DNA of 64,000 nt, taken from Vicinamibacterales bacterium. Its GTDB lineage: Bacteria > Acidobacteriota > Vicinamibacteria > Vicinamibacterales > UBA8438. The DNA is taken from assembly GCA_029940535.1 (NCBI GenBank), contig JAPYUM010000008.1, positions 1 through 64,000 of the forward strand, given 5' to 3'. The notes below the pieces were generated by a model. The model was given only the letters and a program-made list of their open reading frames with translations, had not been told where the DNA came from and searched no databases. The position numbers and the translations under genes were made by a program. Shown in pieces: positions 53,808 to 64,000 of the stretch (position 1 is its first letter; the number at the start of each line of letters is the position of its first letter).

Positions 53808-55691
53808 ATGAAGGCGATAGACACGACGGACGGCGTCTTCGAACCGGGGCAGTCGGGCTCCGTCTGCTGGTGCCAGGCTCTGATCAAACCGGTGTCCTGG
53901 ACGCTGGGTGGCGTCTTGCTGGCCGCCGTGGCGGTGGCCGTGGTCACCGCGGCCGGGTCAGGTCCGGCTGGCTGGGTCAACGATCTGTCACCGATCGCGG
54001 CGACCGATTGGGACTACGACAAGGCGGCGCATCTGATCGAGCGCGCGGGATTTGGGGCCACGCCGGCCGAGATCGAGCGGCTCGCGGCGATGACACCTGA
54101 GCAGGCGGTCGACGAACTGGTCAACTTCGCCGACATCGACAACGGCGCGACACCCGCCTTCGAGGCCTCTCCCATCTGGGACGCCGCGATGGACCCGTTT
54201 CCCAAGAGCCGGGCCGACGCAGTGCGCATTGCCCGTGAGACGGGCGTGTCCATGGGGGTCGGTGTGCTCCCGGAAGGCGAGTCACGTCGGCTCCAGCCTG
54301 TCGTCAATAAGTTCTTCTTCGGCCTGCGGTCCAATGCCATCGAGACCCAGCGACTTGCGGTCTGGTGGGCGGAGCGGATGCTCGTTACACGGCGTCCGCT
54401 GGAAGAGAAGCTCACCCTGTTCTGGCATGGGCACTTCGCGACCGGCAACGGCAAAGTCCGAGACACGCGGATGATGCTGCGGCAGAACGAGATGCTGCGC
54501 GCCAACGCGGCGGAGAGCTTCGGAGACCTGTTGACCGGAATTCTGACCGATCCGGCCATGCTGGTGTATCTGGACAACGGCGAGAATCGGAAGGGCCACC
54601 CCAACGAGAACTTCGGGCGAGAGCTGCTCGAACTGTTCACCATGGGGGTGGGCAACTACTCGGAAACAGATATCCGCGAGGCGTCGAGGGCCTTCACCGG
54701 GTGGACCAACGACGTGCTCGAGTTTCAGTTCGACGCGGCGACCCACGACGACGGAGACAAGACGTTTCTGGGTCGTTCCGGCACCTTGGACGGCGACGAC
54801 ATCATCGACATCATTCTTGACACGCCAGTGACGGCGGAATACATCGCCGCCAAGCTGTATCGGAATTTCGTCCGGGAGGACCTGGACGACGCCACCCGGA
54901 CGGACCTGGCCGAGACGTTCCGCGAGTCCGGCTACGAAGTGCGGCCCCTGTTGCGGCGCATCTTCCTGTCCCGAGACTTCTACAGTCCGGCCTCGTATGC
55001 CACCCAGATCAAGAGCCCGGTGCATCTGGTGGTCTCGACCTATCGCAAGCTGGGGCTGACGGAACTGCCCACGATTCCAGACTTTGGCCGACTGACGGCC
55101 GGTTTGGGACAGACGTTGTTCAACCCCCCGAACGTCGCGGGCTGGGCTGGCGGCCGCACCTGGATCACCCCGGCGCTGTTGCTGGAACGTGGCAACCTAT
55201 TTCGCGGGGTGTTGCTGCCAGATACCGACGGCTTCTGGGCGCCAGACCGAGCCTTACCCGGCATCTACGCGCAGGTCGGCCGACGCATCGATCAAGGCAT
55301 GAACATCACGGCCGCGACGCAGGAGGGCGACTCCGAGTCGAGCCAGATGGCCGACCGCGACGAAGACTACAACACGCGGTATGGCGGCTACATGGGGTAT
55401 GTGATGGCCTACGATCGGCTGCACCTCATCCCCCGCCGGACGGCTGATCTCGACCTGGCCGGTATGCTGCAGGCCGCCGGCGCGACCACGGTCGAGAGTG
55501 CGGTCGATCATTTCGCGCACCGATTTCTGCGCGTTCCGCTGGCGCCCGCCGCACGCGCGGTGCTGGTCGATCGTCTACAGGAAGACCTGGGCAGCGACCG
55601 CTTGCCGGCCGCGCCGGGTCCGCAAGAAGAACTGGCGCTTCGCTCGCTGCTGTATCTCGTGCTGAGCGCGCCGGAGTACCAACTCGCGTAG
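53808..55691 (+). CDS. DUF1800 family protein
   Basis: HLIERAGFGATPAEIERLAAMTPEQAVDELV; MLVTRRPLEEKLTLFWHGHFATGNGKV; NENFGRELLELFTMGVGNYSETDIREASRAFTGW. Confidence 0.92.
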   Translation: MKAIDTTDGVFEPGQSGSVCWCQALIKPVSWTLGGVLLAAVAVAVVTAAGSGPAGWVNDLSPIAATDWDYDKAAHLIERAGFGATPAEIERLAAMTPEQAVDELVNFADIDNGATPAFEASPIWDAAMDPFPKSRADAVRIARETGVSMGVGVLPEGESRRLQPVVNKFFFGLRSNAIETQRLAVWWAERMLVTRRPLEEKLTLFWHGHFATGNGKVRDTRMMLRQNEMLRANAAESFGDLLTGILTDPAMLVYLDNGENRKGHPNENFGRELLELFTMGVGNYSETDIREASRAFTGWTNDVLEFQFDAATHDDGDKTFLGRSGTLDGDDIIDIILDTPVTAEYIAAKLYRNFVREDLDDATRTDLAETFRESGYEVRPLLRRIFLSRDFYSPASYATQIKSPVHLVVSTYRKLGLTELPTIPDFGRLTAGLGQTLFNPPNVAGWAGGRTWITPALLLERGNLFRGVLLPDTDGFWAPDRALPGIYAQVGRRIDQGMNITAATQEGDSESSQMADRDEDYNTRYGGYMGYVMAYDRLHLIPRRTADLDLAGMLQAAGATTVESAVDHFAHRFLRVPLAPAARAVLVDRLQEDLGSDRLPAAPGPQEELALRSLLYLVLSAPEYQLA

Positions 55692-55717
55692 GACGGGGAC
55701 TCTTGGGAGAAAAGAAC

Positions 55718-56977
55718 ATGACGATTCGCCATCTCGACAGCTGCGGATGCTCGCGACGTGACTTTCTACGCAAAGGGCTCTACGGCGTCGGCGTCACCGC
55801 CGGTCTGCCGCTGCTGCTGAGCCGTACCACTGAGGCGCTAACCGCCGAGGCGCTGCGCGGCACGAGCATGGAAACGAACCCGGAGCGCATCCTGGTGGTG
55901 GTGGAATTGTCGGGCGGCAACGACGGGCTGAACACGGTGGTGCCGTTCGGTAACGACGAGTACTACCGCGTGCGTCCCAACATCGGTATTCGTGAGTCTG
56001 ACGTGATCACGATTGAAGATGGCTTCGGGTTGCACCCGTCCATGGTCGGGTTTGAGCGGCTCTACAAGGACGGCATGATGGGCGTGGTCCACGGCTGTGG
56101 CTACGACAACCCCAGCCTGTCTCATTTCTCATCGATGGGTTTTTGGCACACCGGTGTGCCCAACGGCGGCGAGCCGCTGGGGTGGCTGGGACGGCTCGCC
56201 GACGGTGCCTACGACCACGACGCTCAAGGCAACATGATCGTCAACATCGGCACCCGTCAGTCACTGGCGGTGCAGGCGCGTCACCATCAGCCGTTGGTGT
56301 TCAACGACCCACGGAGCTTCCGGCGGGTGGGGTCAGAGGCGGAGAAGCAGGCGATTGAGGGGATGAACCCGGCGTCGTCGGACAATCCGGCCCTAGACTT
56401 CCTGTCGGCCACGGCCACGAACGCCGTCGAGAGCTCCGAGTTCGTACGCGAGGCGGCGGCCGGCTACAACACGCCGATCGACTACGGCATCGGTGGGCTC
56501 TCGGCGCAGCTCAGACGCGTCGCGGCGCTCGTCAATGCCGAGATGCCCACCCGGCTCTACTACGTAAGCTACCAGGGCAACTCGTTCGATACGCACGTGC
56601 ACCAGGCAGACCCGCATGCCCGTCTGCTGACCTACACCGCCGACGCGGTACGAGGGTTTGTCGAGGATCTCAAACGTATCGGCCGCGCCGACGACGTCGC
56701 GATCATGATGTTCACCGAGTTCGGGCGGAGGGTCGAAGAGAACGCCAGTCTTGGCACGGACCACGGCACCGCGACGCCGATGTTCGTGATCGGCAGTGGG
56801 GTCCAGGGTGGGTTGCACGGCCGCCACCCCAGCCTCACGGATCTGGATGACGGCAACCTCAAAATGACCACAGACTTCCGCCGCGTTTACGCGACGATGA
56901 TCGAGGAGTGGCTCGGGTTCAACAATTCGGCGTCCATTCTCAAAGGGTCATTCGAGTCGTTGCCGCTGTTCGTCTGA
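55718..56977 (+). CDS. DUF1501 family protein with Tat-type signal
   Basis: CSRRDFLRKGLYGVGVTAGLPLLLS; ILVVVELSGGNDGLNTVVPFGNDEYYRVRPNIGI; FTEFGRRVEENASLGTDHGTATPMFVIG. Confidence 0.93.
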   Translation: MTIRHLDSCGCSRRDFLRKGLYGVGVTAGLPLLLSRTTEALTAEALRGTSMETNPERILVVVELSGGNDGLNTVVPFGNDEYYRVRPNIGIRESDVITIEDGFGLHPSMVGFERLYKDGMMGVVHGCGYDNPSLSHFSSMGFWHTGVPNGGEPLGWLGRLADGAYDHDAQGNMIVNIGTRQSLAVQARHHQPLVFNDPRSFRRVGSEAEKQAIEGMNPASSDNPALDFLSATATNAVESSEFVREAAAGYNTPIDYGIGGLSAQLRRVAALVNAEMPTRLYYVSYQGNSFDTHVHQADPHARLLTYTADAVRGFVEDLKRIGRADDVAIMMFTEFGRRVEENASLGTDHGTATPMFVIGSGVQGGLHGRHPSLTDLDDGNLKMTTDFRRVYATMIEEWLGFNNSASILKGSFESLPLFV

Positions 56978-58652: not shown

Positions 58653-60032
58653 CTACGGTCGCAGCCGGCGCACTTTCTCTACCAGCGTGGTTCGCTTCAG
58701 TCCCAGCAGTTGGGCCGCGCGTTGTTTGTTGCCGTCGGTCTCATTCAGCGCCTGCGAGATCAATTCGCGCTCGATGTTCGCGATGTAGGCGGGTAGGTCG
58801 ACGCCGCCACCCGGGAGGGTGACGGCCACGGGTTGCTCCAGCGCTGCGGATTCTTGGAGTTCCGGCGGGAGATCTCCGATATCGATCTGGGTGCGTTCGC
58901 CACCGAGAGCCAAGGCGCGCTCGACCGCGTTCTCGAGTTGCCGAATGTTTCCCGGCCAGCCATAGGCCATCATGCGCCGCATCGCTTCCTGGGTGACGGT
59001 GACTTCGCGGGCTGGTGACTGCTGCTGTGAGAGCCGGTTGACGAAGTGGCGGACGAGCAGTGGGATGTCTTCGCGGCGCTCTCGTAGCGGCGGAAGGCCG
59101 ATTGGAATCACGTTCAGTCGGTAATAGAGATCTTCCCGAAATTGGCCATCCTGCACGAGTTGCGGCAGGTTGGCGTTCGTGGCGGCAATGACCCGGACAT
59201 CGATCTTGATGGTGCGGCTGTCGCCAATACGCTCCAGCTCTCGTTCCTGCAGCACCCGCAGCAGCTTGGCCTGGAGGGCGACGCTCATGGTGCCGACCTC
59301 GTCGAGGAAGAGGGTGCCGCGGTCCGCGATTTCGAAACGACCGGCGCGGTTGGCGACCGCACCGGTAAAAGCGCCCCGCACGTGACCGAAGAGCTCGGCT
59401 TCCAGGAGCGTCTCGGGGACGGCGCTGCAGTTCAGCGCGACGAACCGATGCGTGCGTCGACGGCTGTTGTGGTGTATCGCTCGCGCGGCCAGCTCCTTGC
59501 CAGTGCCGGTCTCGCCGGTCACCAGCACAGTGCTGGTACTGGCCGAGACGGTCTCGAGCAGATCGAAGAGTTCCCGCATCCGAGCGCTGCGGCCCACGAG
59601 CCCTTCGAATCGATAGCGGTCTTCCAGTTGTGACCGCAGATACGCGTTCTCTGAACGGAGCCGGCGCTGCTCGAGGGCCGACGCGAGCACGTGCAGGAGT
59701 TGATCGAACTGAAACGGCTTGGTGATGAACTCGGCCGCACCGCGTTTGATCGCCTCGACCGCGTCCTTGACGGTGCCGAAGCCGGTCATGACGAGACCCA
59801 CGATCTCGGGGTAGCGCTCGATTGCGGCACCGAGCACTTCCCGGCCGTCTATGCCCGGAAGACGGAGATCGGTCAGCACCACGTCGAACGCGAATTCGCT
59901 GAGTCGCTCGACGGCCTCCTCCCCGCTGGCGACCGCGACGACTTGGTACCCGTGGTCGACTAGGCGTTCGGCCGTGGTCTCTCGTAGTGCGGCCTCATCT
60001 TCAACGATCAGGAGATGGATGTCCTGCTCCAC
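58653..60032 (-). CDS. NtrC-family sigma54-dependent response regulator (REC-AAA+-Fis HTH)
   Basis: HLLIVEDEAALRETTAERL; TGETGTGKELAARAIHHNSRR; ELFGHVRGAFTGAVANRAGRFE; Fis-type C-terminal ALNETDGNKQRAAQLLGLKRTTLVEKVRRL. Confidence 0.95.
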   Translation of the reverse strand: MEQDIHLLIVEDEAALRETTAERLVDHGYQVVAVASGEEAVERLSEFAFDVVLTDLRLPGIDGREVLGAAIERYPEIVGLVMTGFGTVKDAVEAIKRGAAEFITKPFQFDQLLHVLASALEQRRLRSENAYLRSQLEDRYRFEGLVGRSARMRELFDLLETVSASTSTVLVTGETGTGKELAARAIHHNSRRRTHRFVALNCSAVPETLLEAELFGHVRGAFTGAVANRAGRFEIADRGTLFLDEVGTMSVALQAKLLRVLQERELERIGDSRTIKIDVRVIAATNANLPQLVQDGQFREDLYYRLNVIPIGLPPLRERREDIPLLVRHFVNRLSQQQSPAREVTVTQEAMRRMMAYGWPGNIRQLENAVERALALGGERTQIDIGDLPPELQESAALEQPVAVTLPGGGVDLPAYIANIERELISQALNETDGNKQRAAQLLGLKRTTLVEKVRRLRP

Positions 60033-60098: not shown

Positions 60099-60118
60099 AG
60101 TGTCAACATTTTGACACT
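60099..60118. promoter_or_regulatory. Dyad operator upstream of the sigma54 response regulator
   Basis: AGTGTCA-ACATTT-TGACACT, perfect 7-bp arms, 67 bp upstream of the response-regulator start codon. Confidence 0.6.
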
Positions 60119-60302
60119 CGCGACTGGCCCGGTCAAGTATCCGGCGGCGCGCGCGAAAATGCGGTCAGATTCCAGCGCTCTTGGTCAGAGTCGTTTGGCC
60201 TAATGGCATCGGAGTGCCGTGCCGATACCACTCTTCGAGCCCGCCTCACAGACAAGTCGGTTGAGGACTTCAGGAACGGTGGGTCAGATGCGAGCGCCAG
60301 AG

Positions 60303-60509
60303 ATGATAGTGGATAGGAAAACAATCTCGATCATGAAAGCCTGCGAGCTGGTCGGCGTGAGCCGTCGGACCATCTATAACTGGATCGCGAGCGGTAAAGT
60401 CGAATACGTTCGGACAGCCGGGGGGTCGGTTCGCATCTTCGTCGATACGTTGTGGCGGGAACCGACTACCGGAGCGAGCGAGGTTGCGGCCTTCGAGGCG
60501 GACCGATAG
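60303..60509 (+). CDS. Small excisionase/MerR-type helix-turn-helix protein (start 60288 or 60303)
   Basis: RKTISIMKACELVGVSRRTIYNWIASGKVEYVRTAGGSVRIFVDTLWRE. Confidence 0.85.
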   Translation: MIVDRKTISIMKACELVGVSRRTIYNWIASGKVEYVRTAGGSVRIFVDTLWREPTTGASEVAAFEADR

Positions 60510-60522
60510 ATCCGCCAAGGCG

Positions 60523-60768
60523 ATGCGTAGCCAGATCCCGTACCCGCATTTGCAGATGGATCCACTACAGATGGACCAGCCGACCGATCTCGGCGCCCTC
60601 TTCCATCGGCTGAACAACCAGCTTGGTATCATCCTGGCCAATGCCGAGTTGCTTGAGGCTCGGGCCACCGACGACGCCAGTTCGTCTCGCGCCTCCCAGA
60701 TCGTGACTAGCGCGGTCGAGGCGATCAGCGCCGCTCAGCACATCCGCTCGCGCTGCCAAGACAAGTAG
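60523..60768 (+). CDS. Stand-alone histidine-kinase H-box (DHp-like) protein without ATPase domain
   Basis: DLGALFHRLNNQLGIILANAELLEARATDDASSSRASQIVTSAVEAISAAQHIRSRC aligns with VSGVAHELNNPLATILTWAERL of the hybrid kinase in this window. Confidence 0.65.
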   Translation: MRSQIPYPHLQMDPLQMDQPTDLGALFHRLNNQLGIILANAELLEARATDDASSSRASQIVTSAVEAISAAQHIRSRCQDK

Positions 60769-60828
60769 TTGGCGCCTGTCCCTCCTCTACCCGGGCCTCT
60801 CGGCACGTCCTCAGGATGCGCCAATTAT

Positions 60829-60867
60829 TTGACGATTGAAGTCTGTAAATCGTCAACATAATGACGA
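60829..60867. promoter_or_regulatory. Overlapping dyads (candidate enhancer sites) upstream of the sigma factor gene
   Basis: TTGACGATT-N10-AATCGTCAA (60829-60856) overlapping TCGTCA-ACATAA-TGACGA (60850-60867). Confidence 0.6.
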
Positions 60868-60998: not shown

Positions 60999-61013
60999 TG
61001 GCACCGCTATTGC
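60999..61013 (+). promoter_or_regulatory. Sigma54 (-24/-12) promoter
   Basis: TGGCAC-CGCTA-TTGC with GG-N10-GC spacing, 72 bp upstream of the sigma factor start codon. Confidence 0.8.
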
Positions 61014-61084
61014 GATATCTGCCACCTGTGTAGCGGAACGTCCCGGCTGGGACACCCCGCACAGATATCGGAGGCGATCGCGAC

Positions 61085-61939
61085 ATGACAGTTCAGGCAC
61101 TTGACAGCAAAGACCACGACCGCGTCAGCGCGGGGGTTCCGTTCGTAGAGGCGTTGGCCCGCCGGATGGCGGCCTCGATGCCTCATTCGATCGATCTCGG
61201 CGACCTCGTGCAGGACGGCATGATCGGACTGATCGATGCTTCCAACCGATTCGACGAGAAGCGCGGCATCAAGTTCGAGACGTTTGCCGAGCGCCGCGTG
61301 CGTGGGGCGATGATCGACGCGCTCAGACGGGATGCCTGGCCTCGAGGGGTGCGCCGCGCCCGCCGCGAACTGGAGGCGGCGCGAGAGAAGCTGCGTCATG
61401 AACTGGGCGGCGAACCGTCCCTCGCTGACCTCGCCAAGGTCATGGGGTCTGACGAAGCTCGACTCGGCCGCACCATCGTGCGTATCAATACAATCGAGTC
61501 GACATCACCACTGGCGACCATCGATACCGTCAACGGCGCGCACTTGCCTCCTGTCATGGTACCGGCCGAGCGACCAGGTCCCGACCGTGTCTACGAGACA
61601 AGCGAGGTTGCGGCACGGGTCAGGGACGCGATCAAGGCGCTCCCGTGGCGCGAGCGGAAGGTGGTCGGGCTGTACTACTACGGCGAAGTGACGATGAAGG
61701 AGATCGGCAACGAAATCGGGGTCAACGAGTCGCGGATCTCACAACTCCACGCCCGTGCGGTCCAGCGCCTCCGAAAGTTGCTGGGGCCAGACATGGAGCC
61801 GGCTCAGATGGCCACCGCCTTGTCAGACCAGTTGGCCAAGTCGCCGCCGGGGCTGAAGATGGCCAAGGCGCGGCTAGCCAGGACGGTGAAGCGGGCAGCA
61901 TCGACAGGCACCGAGAAGTCGCTACGCCGGAGCGCCTGA
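61085..61939 (+). CDS. FliA/WhiG-like sigma-70 family factor
   Basis: HSIDLGDLVQDGMIGLIDASNRFDEKRGIKFETFAERRVRGAMIDALRRDAWPRGVRR; LPWRERKVVGLYYYGEVTMKEIGNEIGVNESRISQLHARAVQRLRKLL; about 50-aa C-terminal extension. Confidence 0.92.
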   Translation: MTVQALDSKDHDRVSAGVPFVEALARRMAASMPHSIDLGDLVQDGMIGLIDASNRFDEKRGIKFETFAERRVRGAMIDALRRDAWPRGVRRARRELEAAREKLRHELGGEPSLADLAKVMGSDEARLGRTIVRINTIESTSPLATIDTVNGAHLPPVMVPAERPGPDRVYETSEVAARVRDAIKALPWRERKVVGLYYYGEVTMKEIGNEIGVNESRISQLHARAVQRLRKLLGPDMEPAQMATALSDQLAKSPPGLKMAKARLARTVKRAASTGTEKSLRRSA

Positions 61940-61955: not shown

Positions 61956-63509
<1,554 letters not shown>

Positions 63510-63554: not shown

Positions 63555-64000
63555 TTACGGCGCCGGTGGTGTCGGGGTCGAGGTCGGGTAGACCGACCCA
63601 TACTTGCTGATGATCCCGTTCTGGATGTCTCGAACCGAAGCGCCGAGGGCATGCATTTGCATCGCGTCACGCGCGACATCAAGGCAGTGCGTTCAAGTCA
63701 TACCGTGGGTATCCCACGATTCGACCGCGCCACTCGGTGCGCGCGCCCCGACGAAACAGTCCACGTTCGACACGTGTCCGTTGTTCTCGCATCCGCAATA
63801 GCACGGCACGTAGCTGAGGACGCCTGGATTCTGCGCGGCGAACACGTAGGCTTGCTTGACGAGGTCGACCGGGCGCGGGACCATCTGCGGCACGTAGGGT
63901 AACGGAGGCATCGGCAGCCCGTCCAGCGAGTCCGGCATCGGGGCCTCGCTGGCTGTGATCGGGGCTGGCCCGAGAGCGCCGGCGGCGGCCGGTGTGGCCT
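63555..64000 (-). CDS. PCYCGC-motif protein, predicted selenoprotein with in-frame TGA (Sec) at 63693-63695; 5' end beyond window
   Basis: Read-through translation: ...PMPDSLDGLPMPPLPYVPQMVPRPVDLVKQAYVFAAQNPGVLSYVPCYCGCENNGHVSNVDCFVGARAPSGAVESWDTHGMT-U-THCLDVARDAMQMHALGASVRDIQNGIISKYGSVYPTSTPTPPAP*. The frame is also open 5' to the window edge. Confidence 0.82.
63660..63678 (-). promoter_or_regulatory. Candidate bacterial SECIS hairpin
   Basis: Minus strand UCGCG-CGUGA-CGCGA (plus two wobble pairs) with the apical loop beginning 21 nt after the UGA. Confidence 0.5.

Follow-up and report, generated by a model that had tools for sequence, protein, structure and literature searches.

The locus described here raises the question of what a FliA/WhiG-family sigma factor, encoded behind a sigma54 promoter, controls in a bacterium that lacks flagellar genes. 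The gene lies on the plus strand at positions 61085..61939 of the window, that is, the whole 64-kb stretch of DNA analyzed, which belongs to a genome of the order Vicinamibacterales (assembly of 4.83 Mb, 96.9% complete). It starts with an ATG at 61085, preceded by GGAGG, and encodes a protein of 284 aa that scores 194.4 bits against the NCBI model TIGR02479 (FliA_WhiG), whose cut-off is 189.6, in agreement with its preliminary description as a sigma-28-family gene. The same protein falls short of the thresholds set for the more specific FliA and WhiG models, reaching 170.7 bits with the WhiG equivalog model NF004935, which requires 343. The MzaA anti-phage model was also considered as an identity for this protein and was rejected, the match being weak and limited to the sigma domains.

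The first element to be evaluated is the proposed promoter, TGGCACCGCTATTGC, located on the plus strand at 60999..61013 and assigned as a sigma54 (-24/-12) element by its consensus match and its conservation across the order. Its end is 71 nt from the ATG of the sigma gene, very near the 72 bp first given, and a scan of the plus strand ahead of the gene returned no sigma70-like promoter. Although TGGCACCGCTATTGC is the only zero-mismatch copy of TGGCAC-N5-TTGC in the 64-kb window, near-matches with up to two mismatches number 53 against 60 expected, a chance rate, which makes the site on its own modest to weak evidence and leaves the decision to the comparison with relatives. In these, GG-N10-GC within TGGyAy...TTGC is present in 94 of the 95 non-redundant upstream regions of the order, so that the consensus and the exact spacing originally reported are real. 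When the regions are aligned on the site, the information content is 2.0 bits at the GG, the A, and the GC, and around 0.1 bit at the surrounding positions, while the flanks share 29% identity, as random sequences do (71 site sequences are flank-independent at 60% flank identity). Fully constrained positions within randomized flanks indicate that the element is under strong selection. A coincidental match in GC-rich DNA, which the chance frequency of relaxed sites in the window would allow, is contradicted by this conservation and has a negligible probability. The polymerase subunit needed to read such a promoter is available as well, with one RpoN encoded in the genome of the window and rpoN found in 91 of 100 relatives.

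The second point concerns the relationship of this sigma factor with flagella. The preliminary description had noticed no flagellar genes within the 64 kb and proposed a search for flgM in the genome; a search of the whole assembly returned neither FlhA nor FlgM, extending the absence to the entire genome, and only one FliA-family protein above the cut-off. Orthologs of the sigma factor, with 57-96% identity (fragments included), are found in 89 of 100 related genomes, and their presence is independent of flagella: they occur in 69 of the 77 genomes without flagellar markers (counted as FlhA, FlgM, or a second FliA) and in 20 of the 23 that have them (Fisher p = 0.71). The order does have a flagellar FliA of its own, approximately 40% identical to the sigma factor of the window, which tracks FlhA closely (both in 19 genomes; Fisher p ~3e-16) and which in 17 of those 19 genomes is encoded on the contig of flhA, within a few kb of it. 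Flagellated relatives carry this flagellar FliA in addition to the window-type sigma factor, and in a maximum-likelihood tree the two groups form separate clades, each fully supported (100/100 for that of the window). Beyond the order, nothing in a phylum-wide sample of 297 genomes exceeds 43% identity to the sigma factor of the window. The tree, the independence from flagella, and these identity limits therefore define a distinct ortholog group of the order and not a stray flagellar gene.

An alternative put forward at the outset was that the gene might be a flagellar regulator that had become separated from its operon, to which the relic of a lost flagellar system can be added. The membership of the protein in the FliA/WhiG family and the existence of flagellated lineages in the order speak for such an origin, and the tree may give the group a common ancestor with the flagellar FliA of the order (support 90/87), so that it could have arisen from one. 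Against it, neither FlhA nor FlgM was found in the genome, flagellated relatives retain both sigma genes, with the other one adjoining flhA, and the identity across the order together with the strict conservation of the promoter is unlike that of a relic. A displaced or relic flagellar FliA is, for these reasons, very improbable. The other initial suggestion, an alternative regulon, is strongly supported by an ortholog retained with or without flagella, by its own clade, and by the fixed gene island in which it is embedded, leading to the conclusion that this sigma factor serves a non-flagellar regulon.

The sigma gene is accompanied by a two-component system in a conserved arrangement. Upstream and divergent from it, on the minus strand at 58653..60032, is a gene for an NtrC-type response regulator with a receiver, a sigma54-activator AAA+ domain, and a Fis-type HTH (Pfam Response_reg, Sigma54_activat, and HTH_8), whose translation contains the GAFTGA loop. 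Downstream and convergent, on the minus strand at 61956..63509, a hybrid histidine kinase is encoded (Pfam HisKA, HATPase_c, and receiver). Among the 63 loci with enough flanking sequence, to which all the synteny counts refer, the regulator is upstream of the sigma gene in the opposite orientation in all 63, and so is the kinase downstream, within 5 kb in 62 of them. Two further genes, one for a DHp-like protein (60/63 loci) and one for an HTH protein (52/63), are found upstream of the sigma gene and in its same orientation, and unsupervised clustering of the loci returned the same picture of the island. This fixed neighborhood suggests that the kinase and the regulator are partners, the former being the putative input kinase and the latter the putative activator of the sigma gene. 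The upstream regions of the kinase genes, which follow another gene, contained no readable conserved promoter. Just upstream of the kinase, the start of a gene for a PCYCGC-type protein (63693-64000, minus strand) is cut by the end of the window; this same gene (PF13798, L038) comes after the kinase at many of the orthologous loci (cluster C3).

Elsewhere in the window, the region 19489-43687 holds a set of genes of the replication-origin type, read from their N-termini as gyrA, gyrB, dnaN, and dnaA on the minus strand, followed by yidC, mnmE, mnmG, parA, and an atp operon on the plus strand. The sigma island is located around 33 kb from dnaA. Two adjoining genes at 53808-56977 resemble, by appearance, the common DUF1800/DUF1501 pair.

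Enhancer-like palindromes would provide the link between the regulator and the promoter. The proximal one, GTCAACATAATGAC (60852..60865), is centered around 140 bp upstream of the -24 element, and the distal one, GCCAATTATTTGAC (60820..60833, one mismatch), around 172 bp upstream, its 32-bp spacing from the proximal copy and its distance both fitting the order-wide pattern. The exact sequence GTCA-N6-TGAC is present upstream of 65 of 94 orthologs, against 0.38 expected from shuffled sequences. Measured from the -24 element, the centers are mostly 140-145 and 170-175 bp upstream, and the members of a pair are 30-33 bp apart, which corresponds to about three helical turns. NtrC-like activators bind enhancers arranged as tandem upstream sites of this kind, and these palindromes, recognizable by their conservation, are presumably the binding sites of the regulator. 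A smaller second peak of palindromes appears in the order around -900 to -1300; in the window, GTCAACATTTTGAC (60102..60115) lies between the regulator and the HTH gene, with an identical palindrome in a second genome (G001), and its position ahead of the divergent regulator gene makes it a possible autoregulatory site. The other palindromes inspected in the genome of the window (G000) were mostly intragenic, and none was clearly intergenic and joined to a strong sigma54 site, so the regulator looks dedicated to the sigma gene. The features by which a sigma54-dependent promoter is recognized are found together at this locus, namely the GG-N10-GC element, rpoN in the genome, upstream enhancer-like sites, and an AAA+ activator with the GAFTGA loop, and control of the sigma gene by sigma54 is strongly supported by the comparative data.

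A candidate target of the sigma factor is found in the same island, ahead of the HTH and DHp-like genes (hth-dhp). The first of these, at 60288..60509 on the plus strand, encodes a small excisionase-type DNA-binding protein (HTH_17, 35.1 bits vs a cut-off of 27; TIGR01764), with its ATG at 60288 and an open reading frame that already opens with a GTG at 60219, overlapping the promoter. This promoter, CTAATGGCATCGGAGTGCCGTGCCGATA (60200..60227, plus strand), is the only CTAm-N17/18-CCGATA match in the window and is of the sigma28 type, with a TAAA-like -35 and a GCCGATAA-like -10 that deviate from the strict TAAA-N15-GCCGATAA. The motif is present between the regulator and dhp in 68 of 82 non-redundant regions, in comparison with 0.0006 per region (0.06%) in shuffles; most of the remaining regions have one-letter variants such as CTATAG, TTAAAG, or CCGACA, and in loci without a recognized HTH gene its position is closer to dhp. 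Since most genomes with this promoter have a single FliA-family sigma factor, that of the window is its natural reader, and we infer that it transcribes hth-dhp from this conserved promoter. One other genome (G008, L297:3537-3564) has the hth-type promoter twice, the additional copy (CTAATGGACGGGGCATCAGGTGCCGATA) being ahead of a long open frame and far from the sigma island.

The sigma protein itself has a feature that may be related to this promoter. All 120 orthologs compared have W-PRG in region 2.4, a one-residue deletion relative to the W-x-P-R-S spacing that is common to FliA and WhiG (the form is W-x-PRS for E. coli FliA, WhiG, and L181, and W-A-PRS for the flagellar FliA of the order included in the comparison). 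The deletion falls in the part of the protein that touches the -10 region, and conservation of the hth-dhp promoters does not extend to the initial G of the classical GCCGATAA. Our hypothesis is that the two are linked, and the sigma factor would accordingly have an altered -10 preference. The Lys/Ala-rich C-terminal extension remarked upon initially is likewise real and a feature of the group: the tail is positively charged in 99% of 101 orthologs, with a median length of 73 aa and a median net charge of +10. By its score and its place in the tree, this protein is a variant inside the FliA/WhiG family.

The second gene of the pair (60523..60768, plus strand) encodes an 81-aa DHp-like mini-protein with an H-x-L-x-N motif and no ATPase domain. 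Residues H28, L30, N32, and L34 are the same in all 46 orthologs compared, and the predicted structure is a helical hairpin with a pLDDT of 83, above 90 in the core. Foldseek places the DHp domains of CpxA, GacS/RetS, ZraS, and ERS1 among its best matches, with a high probability and non-significant E-values (best 0.78), as is expected for a hairpin; Pfam HisKA matches are weak, involving 15 of the 46 members (best E 0.0015). Kinases need an acidic residue next to the phospho-acceptor His. The mini-protein retains this His together with the Asn four positions after it, and in the window and in most orthologs the acidic residue directly after the His is absent, which suggests phosphatase-like or phosphate-sink behavior over kinase activity and, hence, a feedback on the regulator.

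The main rival to this phosphorylation feedback is that the 81-aa protein is the anti-sigma factor of the system, replacing FlgM or RsiG. In enteric bacteria, flgM is under the control of the FliA-type sigma factor, and dhp is similarly near the sigma gene and apparently under its control; the predicted helical hairpin and the absence of FlgM from the genome point in the same direction. The conserved residues of the protein are, on the contrary, the H and N of DHp domains, and kinase DHp domains are several of its best fold matches. An anti-sigma role is considered unlikely on balance, and the phosphorylation feedback is the one retained below.

Taken together, these elements suggest a relay conserved across the Vicinamibacterales, from kinase to NtrC-type regulator, sigma54, FliA-like sigma factor, and HTH-DHp pair, a proposal that we consider probable. 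It is built on the sigma54 promoter, the palindromes, the gene order, the separate clade, the independence from flagella, the sigma28-type promoter, and the region 2.4 deletion, all of them established by comparison of sequences. In this relay, the hybrid histidine kinase would answer a signal and control the divergent regulator which, in turn, would bind the tandem palindromes around 140 and 172 bp upstream and activate the sigma54 polymerase at the -24/-12 site. The FliA-like sigma factor would then be made only when the signal is present, and would read CTAm-N17/18-CCGATA ahead of hth-dhp. The pair is the probable feedback arm, where the DHp-like protein would most likely act back on regulator phosphorylation, while the HTH protein would adjust transcription. 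The more specific version of this chain, in which a two-component system acts through sigma54 on a FliA-type sigma factor with altered -10 recognition and a single universally conserved target, a kinase-less DHp protein acting back on the phosphorelay from which the chain starts, is put forward only tentatively, as a possibility falling short of an even expectation. To our knowledge, no example of such a feedback loop from a sigma factor to a phosphorelay has been described.

The extent of the regulon beyond hth-dhp was approached with both the canonical and the derived motif. The scan for TAAA-N15-GCCGATAA proposed in the preliminary description produced no enrichment: the canonical scan of the window gave a weak result (23 vs 15), matches with one mismatch were no more frequent than a reversed control in six genomes, and the exact motif with spacings of 13-16 had 19 matches in 100 genomes, around the control level, flagellated relatives included. 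The derived motif CTAM-N18-CCGATA was not enriched in seven genomes either (in G000, 8 vs 17 in the reversed-pattern control), indicating that the regulon is very small or that its promoters are looser. The hth promoter was the only match common to all seven. Further derived-motif matches precede genes for a receiver-PilZ protein, a secretin, and an amidase, and in two genera (G001 L296 ~2825-2852; G009 L300 ~2444-2471) a promoter-like CTAMAG-N16-CCGATA, in the form CTAAAG/CTACAG...CCGATAGCCC, is found in the gap between pilN and pilO, 15 bp before the latter. Three congeners also have a gene for a Lys/Ala-rich HC2-like histone of 60-65 aa (L287:1675-1872, L292 ~3300, L294:3095-3277), with a sigma70-like promoter upstream that is strongly conserved, together with a possible sigma28-type one. 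In Chlamydia, sigma28 has two targets, of which one is the histone gene hctB. As the derived motif is not enriched, the pilO, HC2-like, PilZ-receiver, secretin, and amidase matches are only leads and may have arisen by chance.

Two views of the main output follow, both somewhat unlikely and equally so. According to the first, the relay would mainly control type IV pilus and cell-surface genes, hth-dhp being just a local feedback arm, as could be read from the matches before pilO, the receiver-PilZ protein, the secretin, and the amidase, and from the WhiG of Rubrobacter as a precedent (PMC8325347); the motif is nonetheless not enriched genome-wide, and the pilN-pilO match, restricted to two genera, was not returned in the genome of the window itself. 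According to the second, the sigma factor would have almost no targets besides hth-dhp, making it a dedicated small-regulon switch in the manner of the Chlamydia sigma28 (PMC12282069). This agrees with the hth promoter being the only match shared by 7/7 genomes, but the motif was derived from that promoter alone, so that looser targets would be missed, and full retention across an order seems disproportionate to such a limited output.

Both non-flagellar FliA/WhiG-family sigma factors and the control of the flagellar sigma28 by sigma54 are already known. The latter is found in polar flagellates, and the RpoN-dependent flagellar genes have been reviewed (PMC3930126). The sigma factor of the window resembles the flagellar FliA (sigma28) in regions 2 and 4, in its match to TIGR02479, and in its TAAA / GCCGATAA-like promoter type, but differs from it by the lack of flagellar genes and FlgM in the genome, the separate clade, the W-PRG deletion, and the basic tail. 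The WhiG-RsiG system of actinobacteria, which controls sporulation in Streptomyces and, according to a proposal for Rubrobacter, type IV pili (PMC8325347), also uses a FliA-family sigma factor for a non-flagellar program; in contrast to it, the sigma factor of the window falls below the WhiG model, would be made via a two-component/sigma54 relay, and has a DHp-like protein as putative partner. The sigma28 of Chlamydia trachomatis is another non-flagellar member of the family with a very small regulon, two promoters by ChIP-seq, in an organism that also has an AtoC-like sigma54 activator, but it is under Euo and GrgA and not reported to be sigma54-dependent (PMC12282069). Non-flagellated Legionella retain a FliA-type sigma factor without flagella (PMC5655016), as does the present genome, and the same is stated of L. 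oakridgensis in a study as cited in PMC12199754; unlike here, Legionella keeps FlgM and flagellar remnants, and the group of the window is distinct, older, order-wide, and found beside the flagellar one. A survey detected FliA homologs in 41% of non-motile genomes (PMC12199754). In the open-access papers searched, neither this sigma group nor a relay from sigma54 to FliA in the absence of flagella was found to be described.

These results give one group of non-flagellar FliA proteins, by reading of sequence, a candidate on-switch, a putative activator with enhancer-like sites, a distinct place in the phylogeny, and a first target promoter that is conserved. As these parts can be read from the sequence, the role of the group becomes testable in any cultured member of the order. 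For Acidobacteriota, FliA matches are no evidence of flagella. In an order that is mostly flagella-less, a gene of flagellar type would be the intermediate link in a conserved regulatory relay.
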